Below are positions 2,784 through 28,781 of a DNA stretch of 39,714 nucleotides, piece by piece. This DNA comes from a virus: positions 1 through 39,714 of the IMG/VR virus record IMGVR_UViG_3300042549_001262; one strand, 5' to 3'. The number at the start of each line of letters is the position of its first letter. Position 1 is the stretch's first letter. The notes beneath the pieces are model-generated. The model searched no databases. It had not been told where the DNA came from and saw only the letters and a list, made by a program, of their open reading frames with translations. The translations under genes were made by a program, and so were the position numbers.

Positions 2784-3770
2784 TTAGGCGTATGTGCCAG
2801 ATGCTTTAGCGTTCTGGAGAACCCACTTAATAGGTGAGAAACCGCCAGTTGAACCTGCATCTGTTGTGTTGCCCTGACCGTTAAGGTCAATTGTTACTTG
2901 AACAAAATCTTCCCCACGCTCAATTACTGCGGCTGTGTAAGCACCCTTAGTAATTGTTGCTTGGATTTGAACTGCCGCCGCTCCTGCGCCGTAAGCCCAA
3001 TTCAGAACAATTGCTGGTTGTGAGTTGCTTAGGAAGCGAGTTAGTTCTGTGTCATCTTCCATAATGAATGTAATTTTGCCCATAACTTCAATAGGACCAA
3101 GGAAGATGTTGTAAGGATTTTGTGTGTTTGAAATGCCGTAAACAGGTGTCACATTGCGCTTCATGTCAATGTTGCCTGTCATTGCATTAGACACTGCTGA
3201 ACCACCGATTGAAACAGTGCCACGCCATACTGGTGTAGGAAGAACTGTTGAGAATGATGGTGTTGGGTCTGAAACTGCTGTTGATGCCCAACCAGTTGTC
3301 TTTGTGTCATATTCCAACATGCCGTCTGCATTGAACTTCAATGAGAAGTCTGAGAACTGGCAACCTGGGTATGAGCGAACATCTGCGGCATAGAAGTCAG
3401 TCAATGTGTAAGAAATTGGCTGGTCATCTGCGCCTGATACAAGGCTGTTCTTTAGAGAAATTGTGTGTGTGTATGGTGCTGATGCTCCTGTAGTTGCAAC
3501 AGAACCAAGCAAACCTGCTAAACCATAACCAATTGTGTCAGCGAATACTGCGCCGCCAAAATCTACAGTTGAGCGTGTGCGCCCTGGAATGTAGTTGTAA
3601 TTAACAACATTGGAACCGCGTAGTCCTGTGTCATAGAGCGGGTCAATGATGTCTTGTGGTTTTAGACTGTCTTTTGCTACTGGAATAAAATCTGTTGGTG
3701 CAACTATTGTTCCCTTAGTAACTTCTTTAGCAATACCAAGGTAGGACCTAACGGATTGTTGAACGGACAT
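2784..3770 (-). CDS. Major tail protein (tail tube subunit)
   Basis: This 328-residue protein would form the tail tube by stacking of hexameric rings. It begins MSVQQSVRSYLGIAKEVTKG and holds the GTxxxPTDFIPV pattern common at the start of siphovirus tube proteins, then beta-rich sequence and a C-terminal stretch WVLQNAKASGTYA. It sits upstream of the frameshifted chaperones, the standard position. Its start overlaps the previous stop (TAATG). A strong hairpin terminator directly follows, consistent with high expression. Confidence 0.85.
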   Translation of the reverse strand: MSVQQSVRSYLGIAKEVTKGTIVAPTDFIPVAKDSLKPQDIIDPLYDTGLRGSNVVNYNYIPGRTRSTVDFGGAVFADTIGYGLAGLLGSVATTGASAPYTHTISLKNSLVSGADDQPISYTLTDFYAADVRSYPGCQFSDFSLKFNADGMLEYDTKTTGWASTAVSDPTPSFSTVLPTPVWRGTVSIGGSAVSNAMTGNIDMKRNVTPVYGISNTQNPYNIFLGPIEVMGKITFIMEDDTELTRFLSNSQPAIVLNWAYGAGAAAVQIQATITKGAYTAAVIERGEDFVQVTIDLNGQGNTTDAGSTGGFSPIKWVLQNAKASGTYA

Positions 3771-15673: not shown

Positions 15674-17101
15674 TTAGACTCCTTCAACAACCTGTGTAGG
15701 AATGATTATAGCGGTTCCACACTTTGAACAATGTGACATTGACTTAGGCATAGGCAATCCGCAACTAGGGCAAATGTTAGCAATTGCATTGAAGTAATTA
15801 CTTACACTTGATGTTCCAAGTAAATCACTAAACGCCTGCACCATGGCATCAATGCGGTCAGGGCTATCAGGGTCTTGTGGTGTCCACACCGTCATTTGGT
15901 CCTCTAGCATTGCAAACTCACCAACATGATGCACACGCCCTTGTTCATACATTGCCGCTACTGGTTCTGCTCTTAGTTTCTTGCCCACATGCGCTCGCAC
16001 TTCTCTAACTGGTAAAGAGTTACGCACTTGTTTAAGAACTGCACTGACCATATCGCCACCTTGGTTTACTTCTACCAGGATTGAGTCAGCCTTATGTTTG
16101 TCAAAAACTTCTACGGCTTTTGTAGCCCATTCAAGCGGGCTTCCCTTAAATGAGTAGTCAGCAATCACATAACCATTACCGCCTGTGTCACAACCAGCAA
16201 CAATAATTCCTGTTTCATCTGAGTCTTTTGTATTTGTTACGGCAGGGTCAATGGAAACAATGACGCGTGACATTGCTGGTGCTTTCTGCACACGGTTACG
16301 GTCAATAACTCCTTTGGTCCATAACGCGCCTTCAACATCATCAAGAATTTCTCCATAAAGTTCTTGCCTTCCAAGCCTGGTGTTGTTGTAGCGGGCCTGT
16401 AATTCTAAAAGAGCGCTAGGCGCAAGGTTCTTAGCGTTATCAAATGTTGAACCGCGTGTAATGACAATAGAGCCGTCTTTGCGGCCCGCCAGCATACGGA
16501 TAAGCGGTGTTGGTCTTGGTGTGGTGGTGACAACAACGCGTGGTTTATCTCCAAGGCGTAATCCAAACTGCAATTGGTCCCAAGCATCTGAATATCTATA
16601 CGCACCTAATTCATCACACCAGGCTCCATGGTGTTGCGGTCCACGGAAACGCTCTGGTTGGTCTGCGGAAAAGAGTTTTATCTTTGAACCGTTTACCAGA
16701 AGGATTTCACCCATAGAACGGTTCCAGTGTTCAAGCATGTGGTATCTGCGTAGCACTGAAATAACGCCTGACTCGCCTTCAGCGCATGTATCTCTAGCAT
16801 CTGAGAATGTAGGTGCGACAATGGCCCAACGGGTTTCAGGTTGGCTTATAGCCTCCCAAGCAAGCCATTCTGCGGCTGTCCTGGTCTTGCCTGCACCACG
16901 GCCTGCCATATACAGCCAAATGTGCCAATCGCCTTCTGGTGCTAATTGTTCTTTACGGGCTAGGCGGTTCTTCCATAAATATCTGCTCGCCTGCACTCTC
17001 GCGTTCAATGAGGGTTGCGTCAGAACTTCCTGACTCAAATGTATCAATGAGTCTGGCAATTCTATCAACTTCTGCGTCAATGCTTCCTGTTCCACTGTCA
17101 T
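15674..17101 (-). CDS. terL: Terminase large subunit with C-terminal zinc ribbon
   Basis: This 475-residue packaging ATPase-nuclease pumps DNA into the prohead and cuts it. Walker A is AGRGAGKT (about residues 66-73), preceded by EQLAPEGDWHIWLY, as in gene-transfer-agent and HK97-type terminases. A Walker B-like acidic pair is in GAWCDELGAY. The C-terminal nuclease has SIDPAVTNTKDSDETGI and ILVEVNQGGD. After the nuclease, residues 444-461 carry CPSC and CSKC, a zinc ribbon not usual for this family. The first 149 bases overlap the small subunit gene. No internal ATG lies before Met65, so the long overlap probably stands, though a non-ATG start inside is possible. Confidence 0.92.
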   Translation of the reverse strand: MTVEQEALTQKLIELPDSLIHLSQEVLTQPSLNARVQASRYLWKNRLARKEQLAPEGDWHIWLYMAGRGAGKTRTAAEWLAWEAISQPETRWAIVAPTFSDARDTCAEGESGVISVLRRYHMLEHWNRSMGEILLVNGSKIKLFSADQPERFRGPQHHGAWCDELGAYRYSDAWDQLQFGLRLGDKPRVVVTTTPRPTPLIRMLAGRKDGSIVITRGSTFDNAKNLAPSALLELQARYNNTRLGRQELYGEILDDVEGALWTKGVIDRNRVQKAPAMSRVIVSIDPAVTNTKDSDETGIIVAGCDTGGNGYVIADYSFKGSPLEWATKAVEVFDKHKADSILVEVNQGGDMVSAVLKQVRNSLPVREVRAHVGKKLRAEPVAAMYEQGRVHHVGEFAMLEDQMTVWTPQDPDSPDRIDAMVQAFSDLLGTSSVSNYFNAIANICPSCGLPMPKSMSHCSKCGTAIIIPTQVVEGV

Positions 17102-23607: not shown

Positions 23608-23997
23608 TTAGGTCAGGTTTTTGGGCAATCTGGCCCCTACGCTCACGCTTACGCCAGGCGTGTCCCCATAGGCCTTAGAAGCCGTTATACGGGTCACCTG
23701 AGCGTCATCACGGTAGGCAATGGCGGTCAGGGCATCTAAAACCCCACGCACCAATTTGTCCAAATCAGGAGGAACGGTTGGCTCCTGGCGGGTCACGGTC
23801 CTTGGGCGGGCAACCGTAAAATCCATTTCAATTTCTACTGGTTCAAGATGTGGTTTGGCTCCAGCCAGTTTTGCGGAAAGCGCTATTGCAGAACGCCATG
23901 CGGCTAGTGCAGAACCTTGTGAATGAATGACATGTCCGTTGATTACTTTCATAGAACCTTGCGGAACAGGTTGTCCATCTACATTGAAATTTATCAC
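23608..23997 (-). CDS. rusA: RusA-like Holliday junction resolvase
   Basis: This 129-residue protein is a RusA-family nuclease that cuts four-way DNA junctions formed in recombination and replication. It has the N-terminal VDGQPVPQGSMKVINGHVIH, the signature PPDLDKLVRGVLDALTAIAY, and RDDAQVTRITASKAYGD with the metal-binding Asp residues. It starts with GTG 23997, overlapping the previous stop (GTGA). It is the last gene of the recombination operon. Confidence 0.92.
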   Translation of the reverse strand: MINFNVDGQPVPQGSMKVINGHVIHSQGSALAAWRSAIALSAKLAGAKPHLEPVEIEMDFTVARPRTVTRQEPTVPPDLDKLVRGVLDALTAIAYRDDAQVTRITASKAYGDTPGVSVSVGARLPKNLT

Positions 23998-24185
23998 AAA
24001 GAAATTGTAACTAAACCTGTCACTATTTCAATATGAGGGTTACCAAATTGGTCAATAACATTTAAGTCATAAGTTCCAATTTTGTCTGGTCCATCAATGT
24101 ATTTAACAGTGTAAGTGTTGTTGTTAATTACAACATTGTCACCGCAAATAACACTTGATGCTGGTATTGAAGTTACAGTAGCCAT
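23994..24185 (-). CDS. 63-residue protein of unknown function
   Basis: The gene starts behind AAGGAGTAAGA. The sequence MATVTSIPASSVICGDNVVI, then NNNTYTVKYIDGPDKIGTYD, is a small beta protein. It overlaps rusA by four bases. A small AT-rich gap of 63 bases precedes it, which has repeated ATTAGT motifs and may hold a weak promoter. Confidence 0.65.
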   Translation of the reverse strand: MATVTSIPASSVICGDNVVINNNTYTVKYIDGPDKIGTYDLNVIDQFGNPHIEIVTGLVTISL

Positions 24186-24248: not shown

Positions 24249-25061
24249 TCACATGTTCTTCAAAAGCACCCGTAATGTTTCTGGCATAGGCGCGGCGTTG
24301 CGGCGGGCTTCTTCATTTTCGCGCTTCCAGCGTTCTGTTTCTAAGCGCTCGCGTTCTGATTTCTCACGGGATAACCGTAATTCTTCTGCTTTCTTTTCTT
24401 CAGCCGTTTTTTCTCTTGCTGGTAAAGCGTCATCAAGCCACCTGTGAGCGTTTAACCAGGTAGAAGGGTGGGCTGTGTATGCAGGAACTCTGTTTGGGTC
24501 CGTAGCATAGGCCTGAGCGCCTTTAATGATTATCTCTGATGAAGTGTGTGACACCGCTTTTTCAAATGCTTTCATTGCGGCCTGCTTTGCAACCTTCAAA
24601 GGATAAATTTTCCAGAATTCATCAAACTGGTTTATATCTAAGTTCTTCTTAGATAGTTCTTCTAAAGAACCCTGATTATCCGACTTCGGTTTTCCAGGGT
24701 TCGGTTTTCCAGGGTTCGGTGAGCCTGCACTAACCGTAGTGGGATTTCCAGGGTTCGGCACTACATCTTGTGGTGTGTCAAAAACAAAGTTCTTAGTTTC
24801 AAAAGTTCCGTTAGGTAGGCGCTCAACAACAGTGCGTATGTAGCCGCAATCCCGTAATTCTTTTAACGCAGTCAAAATTGCATCACGGCCTTCTTTGCCT
24901 GAACGCGCCAATGAGTCACCTGATACGCGCCAATTATCAGGGCGTGAAAGTATCTCTAGGAGAACTCCACGCGCCCGATAACTTAGGCGGTTATCTCTTA
25001 TGACGGAATTTGAGATAACAGAAAAGTTACTTTCTAATCTTGGGCTTCTTATGATGCTCAT
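24249..25061 (-). CDS. Winged-helix replication initiator / replisome organiser
   Basis: This 270-residue protein starts behind AGGAGGCATAA. Residues 1-90 form a winged helix (SYRARGVLLEILSRPDNWRV, then LKELRDCGYIRTVVERLPNG), as in DnaD/replication protein O-type initiators. A linker with repeated NPGKP/NPGNP follows. The C-terminal part (FDEFWKIYPLKVAKQAAMKA, then PSTWLNAHRWLDDALP) is the DnaD-like domain seen in phage replication proteins that load the host helicase. It ends in a basic helical tail. Short repeats in the linker DNA may be the origin. It sits between WhiB-linked genes and rusA. Confidence 0.8.
   Translation of the reverse strand: MSIIRSPRLESNFSVISNSVIRDNRLSYRARGVLLEILSRPDNWRVSGDSLARSGKEGRDAILTALKELRDCGYIRTVVERLPNGTFETKNFVFDTPQDVVPNPGNPTTVSAGSPNPGKPNPGKPKSDNQGSLEELSKKNLDINQFDEFWKIYPLKVAKQAAMKAFEKAVSHTSSEIIIKGAQAYATDPNRVPAYTAHPSTWLNAHRWLDDALPAREKTAEEKKAEELRLSREKSERERLETERWKRENEEARRNAAPMPETLRVLLKNM
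24636..24758. other. Candidate replication origin: iterons and hairpins inside initiator gene
   Basis: Three copies of TTTCCAGGGTTCGG lie at 24690-24704, 24705-24719 and 24744-24758 (15-base units, two adjacent). Beside them are two perfect inverted repeats, ATCTAAG/CTTAGAT (24636-24654) and GTTCTT/AAGAAC (24656-24670). The cluster sits between the codes for the N- and C-terminal domains of the initiator, as the lambda origin sits within O. The protein repeat alone could explain part of it. Confidence 0.5.
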
Positions 25062-25520
25062 TTATGCCTCCTGATTAACAATTATATTTCTAAAATAATT
25101 TTGAAAGTCAGCAACATTAACAAAGATTACAAAATCTGTTTCATTTGTGTCTTTGCGTGTATGTATAACTGGCTCTAAATGCGCTAATGCTTTTGCGGGA
25201 ACCATCATAAGGCCATCTGTAAACCTAAAACAAATTCTGTTATAGGACTCAGGGTTATCTGTGTATGGTGGAGAAATAAGCATTTGCTGTAATTTATTGT
25301 AAGGAAAAATAGCGGGATATTTACTAGAACTGTTAAGCCATTTGATTTCCAAATCACCTATGTAATTTTCACGCCCGTTTTCATAAACGCGTTGAATGTG
25401 AAAATCAGTAAAATAAAATTTTGGCGTAGCGTATAACCTCCATGGCAAAATCTGGCAAAGATGAACAGCCATAATTTGTTCACGGCGGTTATCGCTATGA
25501 ACCTGTCTAATTGGCTCCAT
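25062..25520 (-). CDS. 152-residue protein of unknown function
   Basis: The start taken is ATG 25520 (MEPIRQVHSDNRREQIMAVH), overlapping the WhiB stop region. It is an alpha/beta protein with many aromatic residues (WRLYATPKFYFTDFHIQRVY). No motif links it to a known family. It lies between WhiB and the replication initiator. Confidence 0.7.
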   Translation of the reverse strand: MEPIRQVHSDNRREQIMAVHLCQILPWRLYATPKFYFTDFHIQRVYENGRENYIGDLEIKWLNSSSKYPAIFPYNKLQQMLISPPYTDNPESYNRICFRFTDGLMMVPAKALAHLEPVIHTRKDTNETDFVIFVNVADFQNYFRNIIVNQEA

Positions 25521-25851
25521 CAATGCACTCCCTAATTTCTACATAAGTTATTCCAAAATCTTTCATGCTCTTTAGAGCGCGTAAACGCTGATTGGGATAC
25601 TTGTAATAGTTCTGCATAGACACGCGTTCAACACCTGTCAGCCCACCCCATACGCCGTAATCCTCATATTGAAATGCGTATGTCAGGCAGTCTTTCCATA
25701 ACGGACATGCAGTGCAAATAGACCGTAATGAATTTATGTATTCATACTGCATAATAGAGCGTTCTTCTTCCACTGAATAAAACAAATCAGTAGGAATTCC
25801 AAGCGCTCTACATTCAGCCTGGTCCCAATCTATTTCGTCATACTTGGGCAA
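25507..25851 (-). CDS. whiB: WhiB-family iron-sulfur transcription regulator
   Basis: This 114-residue protein has the four Fe-S cysteines of WhiB: Cys14, Cys46, Cys49 and Cys55 (CRALG, then CTACPLWKDC). The G[VI]WGG turn follows at 66-70 (GVWGGLTGVER), then a basic C-terminus. It starts at TTG 25851, seven bases after AGGAG. WhiB proteins bind sigma-A and alter host transcription; phage copies are known in actinophages (for example TM4 WhiB acts on host septation and superinfection). Its presence is a strong sign of an actinobacterial host. Confidence 0.93.
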   Translation of the reverse strand: MPKYDEIDWDQAECRALGIPTDLFYSVEEERSIMQYEYINSLRSICTACPLWKDCLTYAFQYEDYGVWGGLTGVERVSMQNYYKYPNQRLRALKSMKDFGITYVEIRECIDGAN

Positions 25852-28193: not shown

Positions 28194-28781
28194 ATGACCA
28201 CACTTGCCGCGTTCCAGGGCAACGGGTTTGCCATTATTGGCGCTGACTCACGGGCTACAGATGACAATGGAAGCCACATCATTCTTTCTAATCCAAAAGT
28301 GTCTTGGGACAATGCAGGTGATTACATCTTTGCAATTACTGGCGCTACCCGTGGCGGCAATCTTATTCAGCAAGGTTGGGTTCCACCCGCGCCACCTGAA
28401 TTTACTTCTATTCAAAAGTTAGATGAGTTTATGACCCAGGGTTTTATTCCTGAATTGCGTGACCATTTTATTGACTCTGGTTTTGACTCTAAATGGGAAG
28501 GTGAAGCGGCTTGGACCGACTCAGCATTTTTAGTTGCAGTGCAAGGAGTTATCTACCCAATAAATATTGATTACGGTTGGGATAGAGATATACGCGGAAC
28601 CTATGTTTTTGGTAGCGGTGGAGATATTTCATTGGGCGTAATGGTTGCGTTGGGAATTGATAAATGCAAAGACAATCCTAAAGAAGCAAGAAAGATTGTT
28701 AAAAGAGCAGTTGAAATTGCTTGCCAATGGAACGCTTTTTGTGCGCCGCCAGTGGTAATTGAAATTCAATATGTGGACTAA
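28194..28781 (+). CDS. 20S proteasome beta-like Ntn hydrolase
   Basis: This 195-residue protein is the only plus-strand gene. It starts at ATG 28194 behind AGGGAGG. After Met removal it begins TTLAAFQGNGFAIIGADSRA, matching the proteasome beta start: Thr1 nucleophile, Asp17 (GADSRAT) and a Lys near 33 in SNPKVSW. A GSGGDISLGVM segment fits the GSG near Ser129. The C-terminal NAFC seems to replace the usual Asp166-x-x-Ser169, so activity is uncertain. It is shorter than actinobacterial PrcB and lacks a propeptide. No alpha subunit or ATPase is encoded. It may be self-assembling like HslV/Anbu, a host-proteasome interactor, or a protease for phage or host proteins. It is convergent with the phosphoesterase gene (4-base overlap). 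Confidence 0.8.
   Translation: MTTLAAFQGNGFAIIGADSRATDDNGSHIILSNPKVSWDNAGDYIFAITGATRGGNLIQQGWVPPAPPEFTSIQKLDEFMTQGFIPELRDHFIDSGFDSKWEGEAAWTDSAFLVAVQGVIYPINIDYGWDRDIRGTYVFGSGGDISLGVMVALGIDKCKDNPKEARKIVKRAVEIACQWNAFCAPPVVIEIQYVD

Follow-up and report, generated by a model that had tools for sequence, protein, structure and literature searches.

The replication initiator gene of an uncultivated phage raises the question of whether the origin of replication lies within the gene itself. We examined positions 1 to 39,714 of IMG/VR record IMGVR_UViG_3300042549_001262 (39,714 nt; hereafter the window), for which an earlier note had proposed a possible origin in the stretch that encodes the linker between the two domains of the initiator. 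Suppression of synonymous change, together with repeats and an adjoining AT-rich block as in lambda O and TP901-1 rep, supports that proposal. With a probability of roughly 0.86, the linker-coding segment (about 24630-24758) is a theta replication origin inside the initiator gene, in which iterons would be bound, an AT-rich block melted and the host helicase loaded. The features of the locus are as follows.

24249-25061, minus strand: replication initiator gene, 270 aa (HTH_36, phrog_270, AlphaFold)
24771-25061, minus strand: N-terminal winged-helix domain, residues 1-97 (HTH_36 at residues 25-75; well modelled)
24745-24758, minus strand: iteron 1, CCGAACCCTGGAAA, isolated and least conserved copy
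24706-24719, minus strand: iteron 2, CCGAACCCTGGAAA, exact copy
24691-24704, minus strand: iteron 3, CCGAACCCTGGAAA, exact copy
24675-24689, minus strand: last, divergent (fourth) repeat unit, CCGAAGTCGGATAAT, at 15-nt spacing
24667-24674, plus strand: inverted half-copy, GAACCCTG, perfect 8-bp complement of the direct repeats
24635-24655, no strand assigned: perfect inverted repeat TATCTAAG/CTTAGATA within the AT-rich block (arms 24635-24642 and 24648-24655, 5-nt loop)
24630-24665, minus strand: AT-rich block, TTAGAAGAACTATCTAAGAAGAACTTAGATATAAAC, candidate DNA-unwinding element (near-invariant, low stability)
24432-24629, minus strand: helical C-terminal domain, about residues 145-210 (phrog_9327; modelled helices 145-204)

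A profile search identified the gene product as a phrog_270 replication initiation protein (E 4.6e-36), the match at residues 10-257 covering most of the initiator, and placed HTH_36 at residues 25-75 (E 6e-6; 26.4 bits, above the cut-off of 25 bits). The AlphaFold model (mean pLDDT 77) consists of a winged-helix domain, a linker and a helical C-terminal domain. Only residues 101-142 had a pLDDT below 50 and are predicted to form a disordered linker. Positions 24636-24758 encode residues 102-142, and the segment is thus placed between the DNA-binding and C-terminal domains, as had been proposed. The N-terminal winged-helix domain would be the repeat-binding domain, and the C-terminal domain may recruit the host helicase; a phrog_9327 primosomal protein profile matched residues 119-220 (E 1.7e-18). 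The initiator had no sequence match among solved structures, and Foldseek returned only weak winged-helix matches (all E > 0.001), with primosomal DnaB of Geobacillus and domain 1 of RctB as the best functional leads.

The replication and recombination module of the initiator also encodes RusA (23608-23997, two genes downstream), SSB, a Cas4-like exonuclease and an SbcD-like exonuclease. No helicase, polymerase or helicase loader was recognised among the 18 window proteins scanned with PHROGs, a set that left out the 63-aa gene between RusA and the initiator (23994-24185). A WhiB-family regulator is encoded two genes upstream of the initiator (25507-25851, minus strand). Judging from this gene and from related actinophages, the host is probably an actinobacterium, despite a GC content of about 43%. 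An HslV-family peptidase-like gene (phrog_1040; 28194-28781, plus strand) lies on the strand opposite to the surrounding replication module.

The three copies of CCGAACCCTGGAAA (TTTCCAGGGTTCGG on the plus strand) described in the earlier note were found at the positions listed above. All are on the minus (coding) strand, none occurs elsewhere in the record, and no other 14-mer of the window has three copies within 70 nt. These 14-bp direct copies, at offsets of 15 and 39 bp, are accompanied by a single divergent direct unit and a single inverted half-copy. The half-copy pairs with the direct repeats to give the inverted repeat GAACCCTG/CAGGGTTC (24667-24674 with 24695-24702). Both of the perfect inverted repeats reported for 24636-24758 are present, though TATCTAAG/CTTAGATA begins one base outside that interval. 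The direct self-similarity of the linker was 35, compared to a mean of 9 in synonymous reshuffles that preserved the peptide (p<1/300). Searching for the repeat in palindromic form gave only three unrelated places.

The exact 14-mer is common only to the window and its two closest relatives, and the conserved repeat core of the wider clade is roughly CCnnnCCTGnAAACC. The Pro107 codon of iteron 1 was CCC, CCT or CCA in relatives, while the Pro120 codon of iteron 3 was CCG in 29 of 29 and the Pro125 codon of the divergent unit was CCG in 28 of 28. In 15 sampled genes of this phage, CCG makes up 5% of the proline codons, as against four of the eight in the linker. The inverted half-copy tracks the direct repeats in L052-L062 and does not do so in L011/L013, so that covariation is imperfect.

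A TTAGAA box opens the AT-rich block, 24 nt past the start of the last repeat. Positions 24630-24669 are the least stable 40-mer of the initiator gene and rank 47th among the 39,675 40-mers of the window (top 0.12%). The block is conserved more strongly than the repeats, with a synonymous difference of 0.018-0.043 in its half of the segment (codons 131-146). Furthermore, a 27-nt piece of it was found in 29 contig stretches, always in the frame of the initiator. By comparison with lambda, an unwinding element would be expected to have this position and character, and the block is our candidate for that role. In the 39-kb contig IMGVR_UViG_3300005805_000006, the frozen block is present at both ends (L202:45-71 and L209:12330-12356), which suggests that the genome is either terminally redundant or circular and complete, with the cut falling within the initiator gene.

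Among 31 diverse linkers, CTATTA, TTAGAA and ATAGAA each occurred about four times as often as in shuffles that preserve the peptide. The unwinding region of Bacillus subtilis oriC has a CTACTATTACTTCTACTA strand (PMC10201434), which the box after the last repeat resembles, and the AT-rich region of lambda has CACTATTACAAAAG at a similar place. We tentatively raise the possibility, which we consider rather doubtful at present, that a box at a fixed distance from the last repeat (TTAGAA, ATAGAA or CTATTA) is a sequence-specific and strand-specific loading signal, beyond easy melting, and is common to very different in-gene phage origins.

Free synonymous variation in related phages had been named in the earlier note as an outcome that would speak against an origin. 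Of 71 relatives fetched, 29 distinct full-length sequences, including that of the window, entered the codon alignment. Synonymous difference at codons 102-146 was 0.106 in clade A and 0.069 in clade B, compared to 0.390 and 0.398, respectively, in the rest of the gene, and no random column set out of 20,000 was as low as the linker. This freeze strongly favours an origin. Relative to expectation, synonymous difference was about 1.1 in the flanking domains, 0.24-0.42 in the repeats, 0.05-0.15 in the AT-rich block and about 1 in the C-terminal domain. The dip is local: against the window sequence, values were 0.35-0.48 in eight flanking genes, 0.41 in the rest of the initiator and 0.12 in the linker. 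Amino-acid variation in the linker was 0.243 versus 0.218 elsewhere in clade A and 0.387 versus 0.332 across all sequences; it was lower in the clade B linker (0.093 versus 0.155). Lambda O, which served as a positive control, has the same low-synonymous signature at its known origin: in the iterons and AT-rich DNA, 3 of 43 codons varied synonymously, versus 56 of 256 elsewhere (p=0.014). The relatives of TP901-1 were too few and too alike for a synonymous comparison.

Constraint on the DNA can be separated from constraint on the peptide by strand-swapped repeats, by a constant geometry and by an AT-rich box that persists outside coding sequence. L045/L069 carry CCAGGCTTCGG, and the minus-strand repeat of the window reads CCAGGGTTCGG on the plus strand; the same repeat is thus present on the opposite strand, where the linker encodes NQASGNQASVFQAS. 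Likewise, the L044 repeat CCAGGCGTCGG and the L052-type CCGACGCCTGG are reverse complements of each other. The peptides encoded by the swapped repeats are unrelated (NQAS type versus PxPGKP type). A last repeat of 15 nt followed by 9 nt and a WWAGAA or TTAAAA box was found in 36 distinct linkers with freely changing residues; the search filter required that spacing, and the count shows how common the arrangement is rather than an unbiased rate. In the nine L052-L062 loci that were read, TAATAA ends the frame directly after the repeats and the inverted copy. The non-coding DNA past this stop nevertheless has TAATAAGAACTATC or a close variant at the position where the window has TTAGAAGAACTATC. 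As the frame ends after the iterons (around 3300-3430 of these loci), the binding and C-terminal parts are either encoded separately in L052-L062, or the C-terminal part has been lost. A separate ORF (MEISAAKAQLEVWADWYQPKHVPWRRW...) lies downstream of the non-coding box. An initiator relative in a Gallionellaceae MAG (L192:1501-1893) also has a frame that stops just past the linker repeats, after 131 codons.

The odd repetitive peptides of this initiator family (PNPGKP, PxSENP, NQASGNQAS and others) are hereby shown to largely reflect the DNA signal. In the window and in most relatives tested, including St80, BF695, LbEF, EfHo07 and BurkJC1, repeats exceeded those of codon shuffles that keep the peptide, while by the same self-similarity measure L017, L032, L047, REQ2 and Vib had few direct repeats, or none, in excess of shuffles. 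Repeat-bearing linkers are found at the same place in named phages of Staphylococcus, Enterococcus, Lactobacillus, Lactococcus, Bacteroides and Burkholderia, as well as in Pontimonas, Pseudoalteromonas, Arthrobacter, Gordonia and Microbacterium phages; in most of these the repetition is greater than in peptide-preserving shuffles.

DNA-level constraint alone would fit any protein-binding array. The repeats could be operators through which the initiator or another phage regulator controls transcription, with no origin function, and the WhiB-like regulator two genes upstream is in keeping with such a role. However, the repeats lie about 300 nt inside the gene, away from the promoter, and are followed at fixed spacing by a near-invariant block of low stability, as in lambda ori. 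In addition, all 29 contig stretches with the 27-nt piece have it in the initiator frame, and we regard an operator array as unlikely. Conservation could also act on RNA, if the segment were a structured element of the initiator mRNA that regulates translation or stability. The window strand folds better than shuffles (z = -3.55), and the TATCTAAG/CTTAGATA hairpin is invariant within the clade. This hairpin is, however, lost in L035, L042, L058 and L065, two-sided compensatory change was seen in none of the 23 predicted pairs (the covariation term was nil), and the repeat is found on either strand. Moreover, inverted repeats were not in significant excess in BF695, LbEF, EfHo07 and Phluffy, although all four have direct repeats. 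An RNA element is, in our judgement, very improbable.

The repetitive peptide PNPGKPNPGKP might instead be a low-complexity repeat that arose by recent tandem duplication of codons, with the identical DNA copies as unselected leftovers. The probability that three PNPG copies share codons by chance is about 1e-3 under the codon usage of this phage, and copying would explain identity within one genome. Such copying fails, however, to account for synonymous identity among phages that are 60-75% identical in protein, for the frozen, non-repetitive AT-rich block, for the strand swap and for the persistence of the AT-rich box where it is non-coding, and we regard this explanation as scarcely credible. 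An origin embedded in the linker codons is the reading that we adopt.

The earlier note had described the arrangement as the same as that of lambda ori within O. The layout agrees: initiator-binding repeats (putative ones in the window) lie in linker codons (residues 117-145 of 299 in lambda O; residues 102-130 of 270 in the window), with about 40 bp of AT-rich DNA on their 3' side (PMC5043065). In lambda, binding of O opens this adjoining 40-bp A+T-rich region (PMC5043065). The iteron type does not agree, as lambda has four palindromic iterons of 18-19 bp that bind O dimers, whereas the units in the window are 15 bp apart and mostly direct. Nor was a counterpart of the lambda P helicase-loader gene recognised beside the window initiator among the genes scanned. 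The O-like families phrog_678 (E 0.001) and phrog_345 (E 0.0015) matched the initiator only marginally. These comparisons support an origin that would work like lambda ori in O, yet probably lies outside that family in the strict sense.

A closer counterpart is Rep of the Lactococcus phage TP901-1, the gene for which is annotated as 'replication protein, experimental'. Its N-terminal domain is homologous to that of the window initiator (34.9% over 83 residues, E 1e-10), its linker codons contain 15-nt units (CCAGATGTGGNTTTT; TTTTCCAGATGTGG-type repeats) with AT-rich DNA after them, and its module also includes ssb and rus genes. In contrast, the C-terminal domain of TP901-1 Rep gave no match to that of the window initiator in the search, and both the repeat sequence and the host group differ. 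Ostergaard et al. reportedly found in 2001 that the repeats in TP901-1 rep are needed for replication. Related 'replisome organizer' origins of Gram-positive phages (Tuc2009 type) belong with TP901-1 rep in this comparison. It supports placing the window initiator gene, near TP901-1 rep, in the wider class of initiator genes that contain an origin.

Other initiators offer more distant parallels. The RepA genes of the mycobacteriophages Miko, Rachaly and Jeeves are sufficient for autonomous replication, with the cis-acting ori placed within or beside repA (PMC7157519). The window initiator, probably also from an actinophage, would likewise have its ori within the gene. However, RepA is a plasmid-type initiator of 320-350 aa that serves prophage maintenance and not lytic growth, and the region examined in that study was reported to lack repeat motifs (PMC7157519). 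The replisome organizer gp38 of Bacillus phage SPP1 binds its origin (oriL) and recruits loader and helicase (PMC5615212), a likeness to the window initiator that would be one of function; SPP1 differs in having its own loader and helicase genes (G39P and G40P). A 666-aa ORF that resembles primase-helicases contains CCGATATCGGAA(A) twice in what is presumably its interdomain linker (L228:2017-2045 and L229:11757-11785), and these copies may represent an in-gene origin in an unrelated replication protein.

GC skew, proposed in the earlier note as a check, did not point to the linker. The cumulative minimum of the window is at 33.65 kb (31.7 kb detrended), away from 24.7 kb. The test was given no weight because TP901-1, with its experimentally identified rep at 6.7-7.6 kb, also has its minimum elsewhere (3.0 kb; 5.2 kb detrended).

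Several other candidate functions were considered for the segment. An overlapping gene was rejected, as no alternative frame is open through the window linker and none is open consistently across relatives. DnaA boxes were no more frequent than expected in the window (112 near-matches versus 126 expected), with nothing special at the linker site. A packaging site was rejected by reasoning, given the distance of 7 kb to the terminase genes (terL at 15674-17101, assigned by eye).

Near-identical linker repeats beyond the needs of the peptide and an easily melted AT-rich segment on their 3' side are hallmarks of an iteron origin, and both are present here. By analogy with lambda and the replisome organizers, the winged-helix domain of the initiator would bind the tandem 15-bp repeats, and the resulting nucleoprotein complex would melt the adjoining AT-rich block. 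The C-terminal domain would then load the host helicase onto the opened strands. The linker peptide would be mostly a by-product of the DNA signal, and because it is predicted to be disordered, it may tolerate any residues that this signal dictates.

Literature searches, which did not extend to most subscription journals, returned no report of this origin. The design of an origin within a gene is known from other phages, and the evolutionary evidence for it is unusually clear here. Overall, the locus provides a concrete candidate origin for a group of uncultivated phages whose hosts are probably actinobacteria. With a constant geometry and a near-invariant AT-rich block to look for, origins could be located simply, from sequence only, in many phage genomes, and the same features allow one to examine whether the unwinding element is recognised by its sequence.
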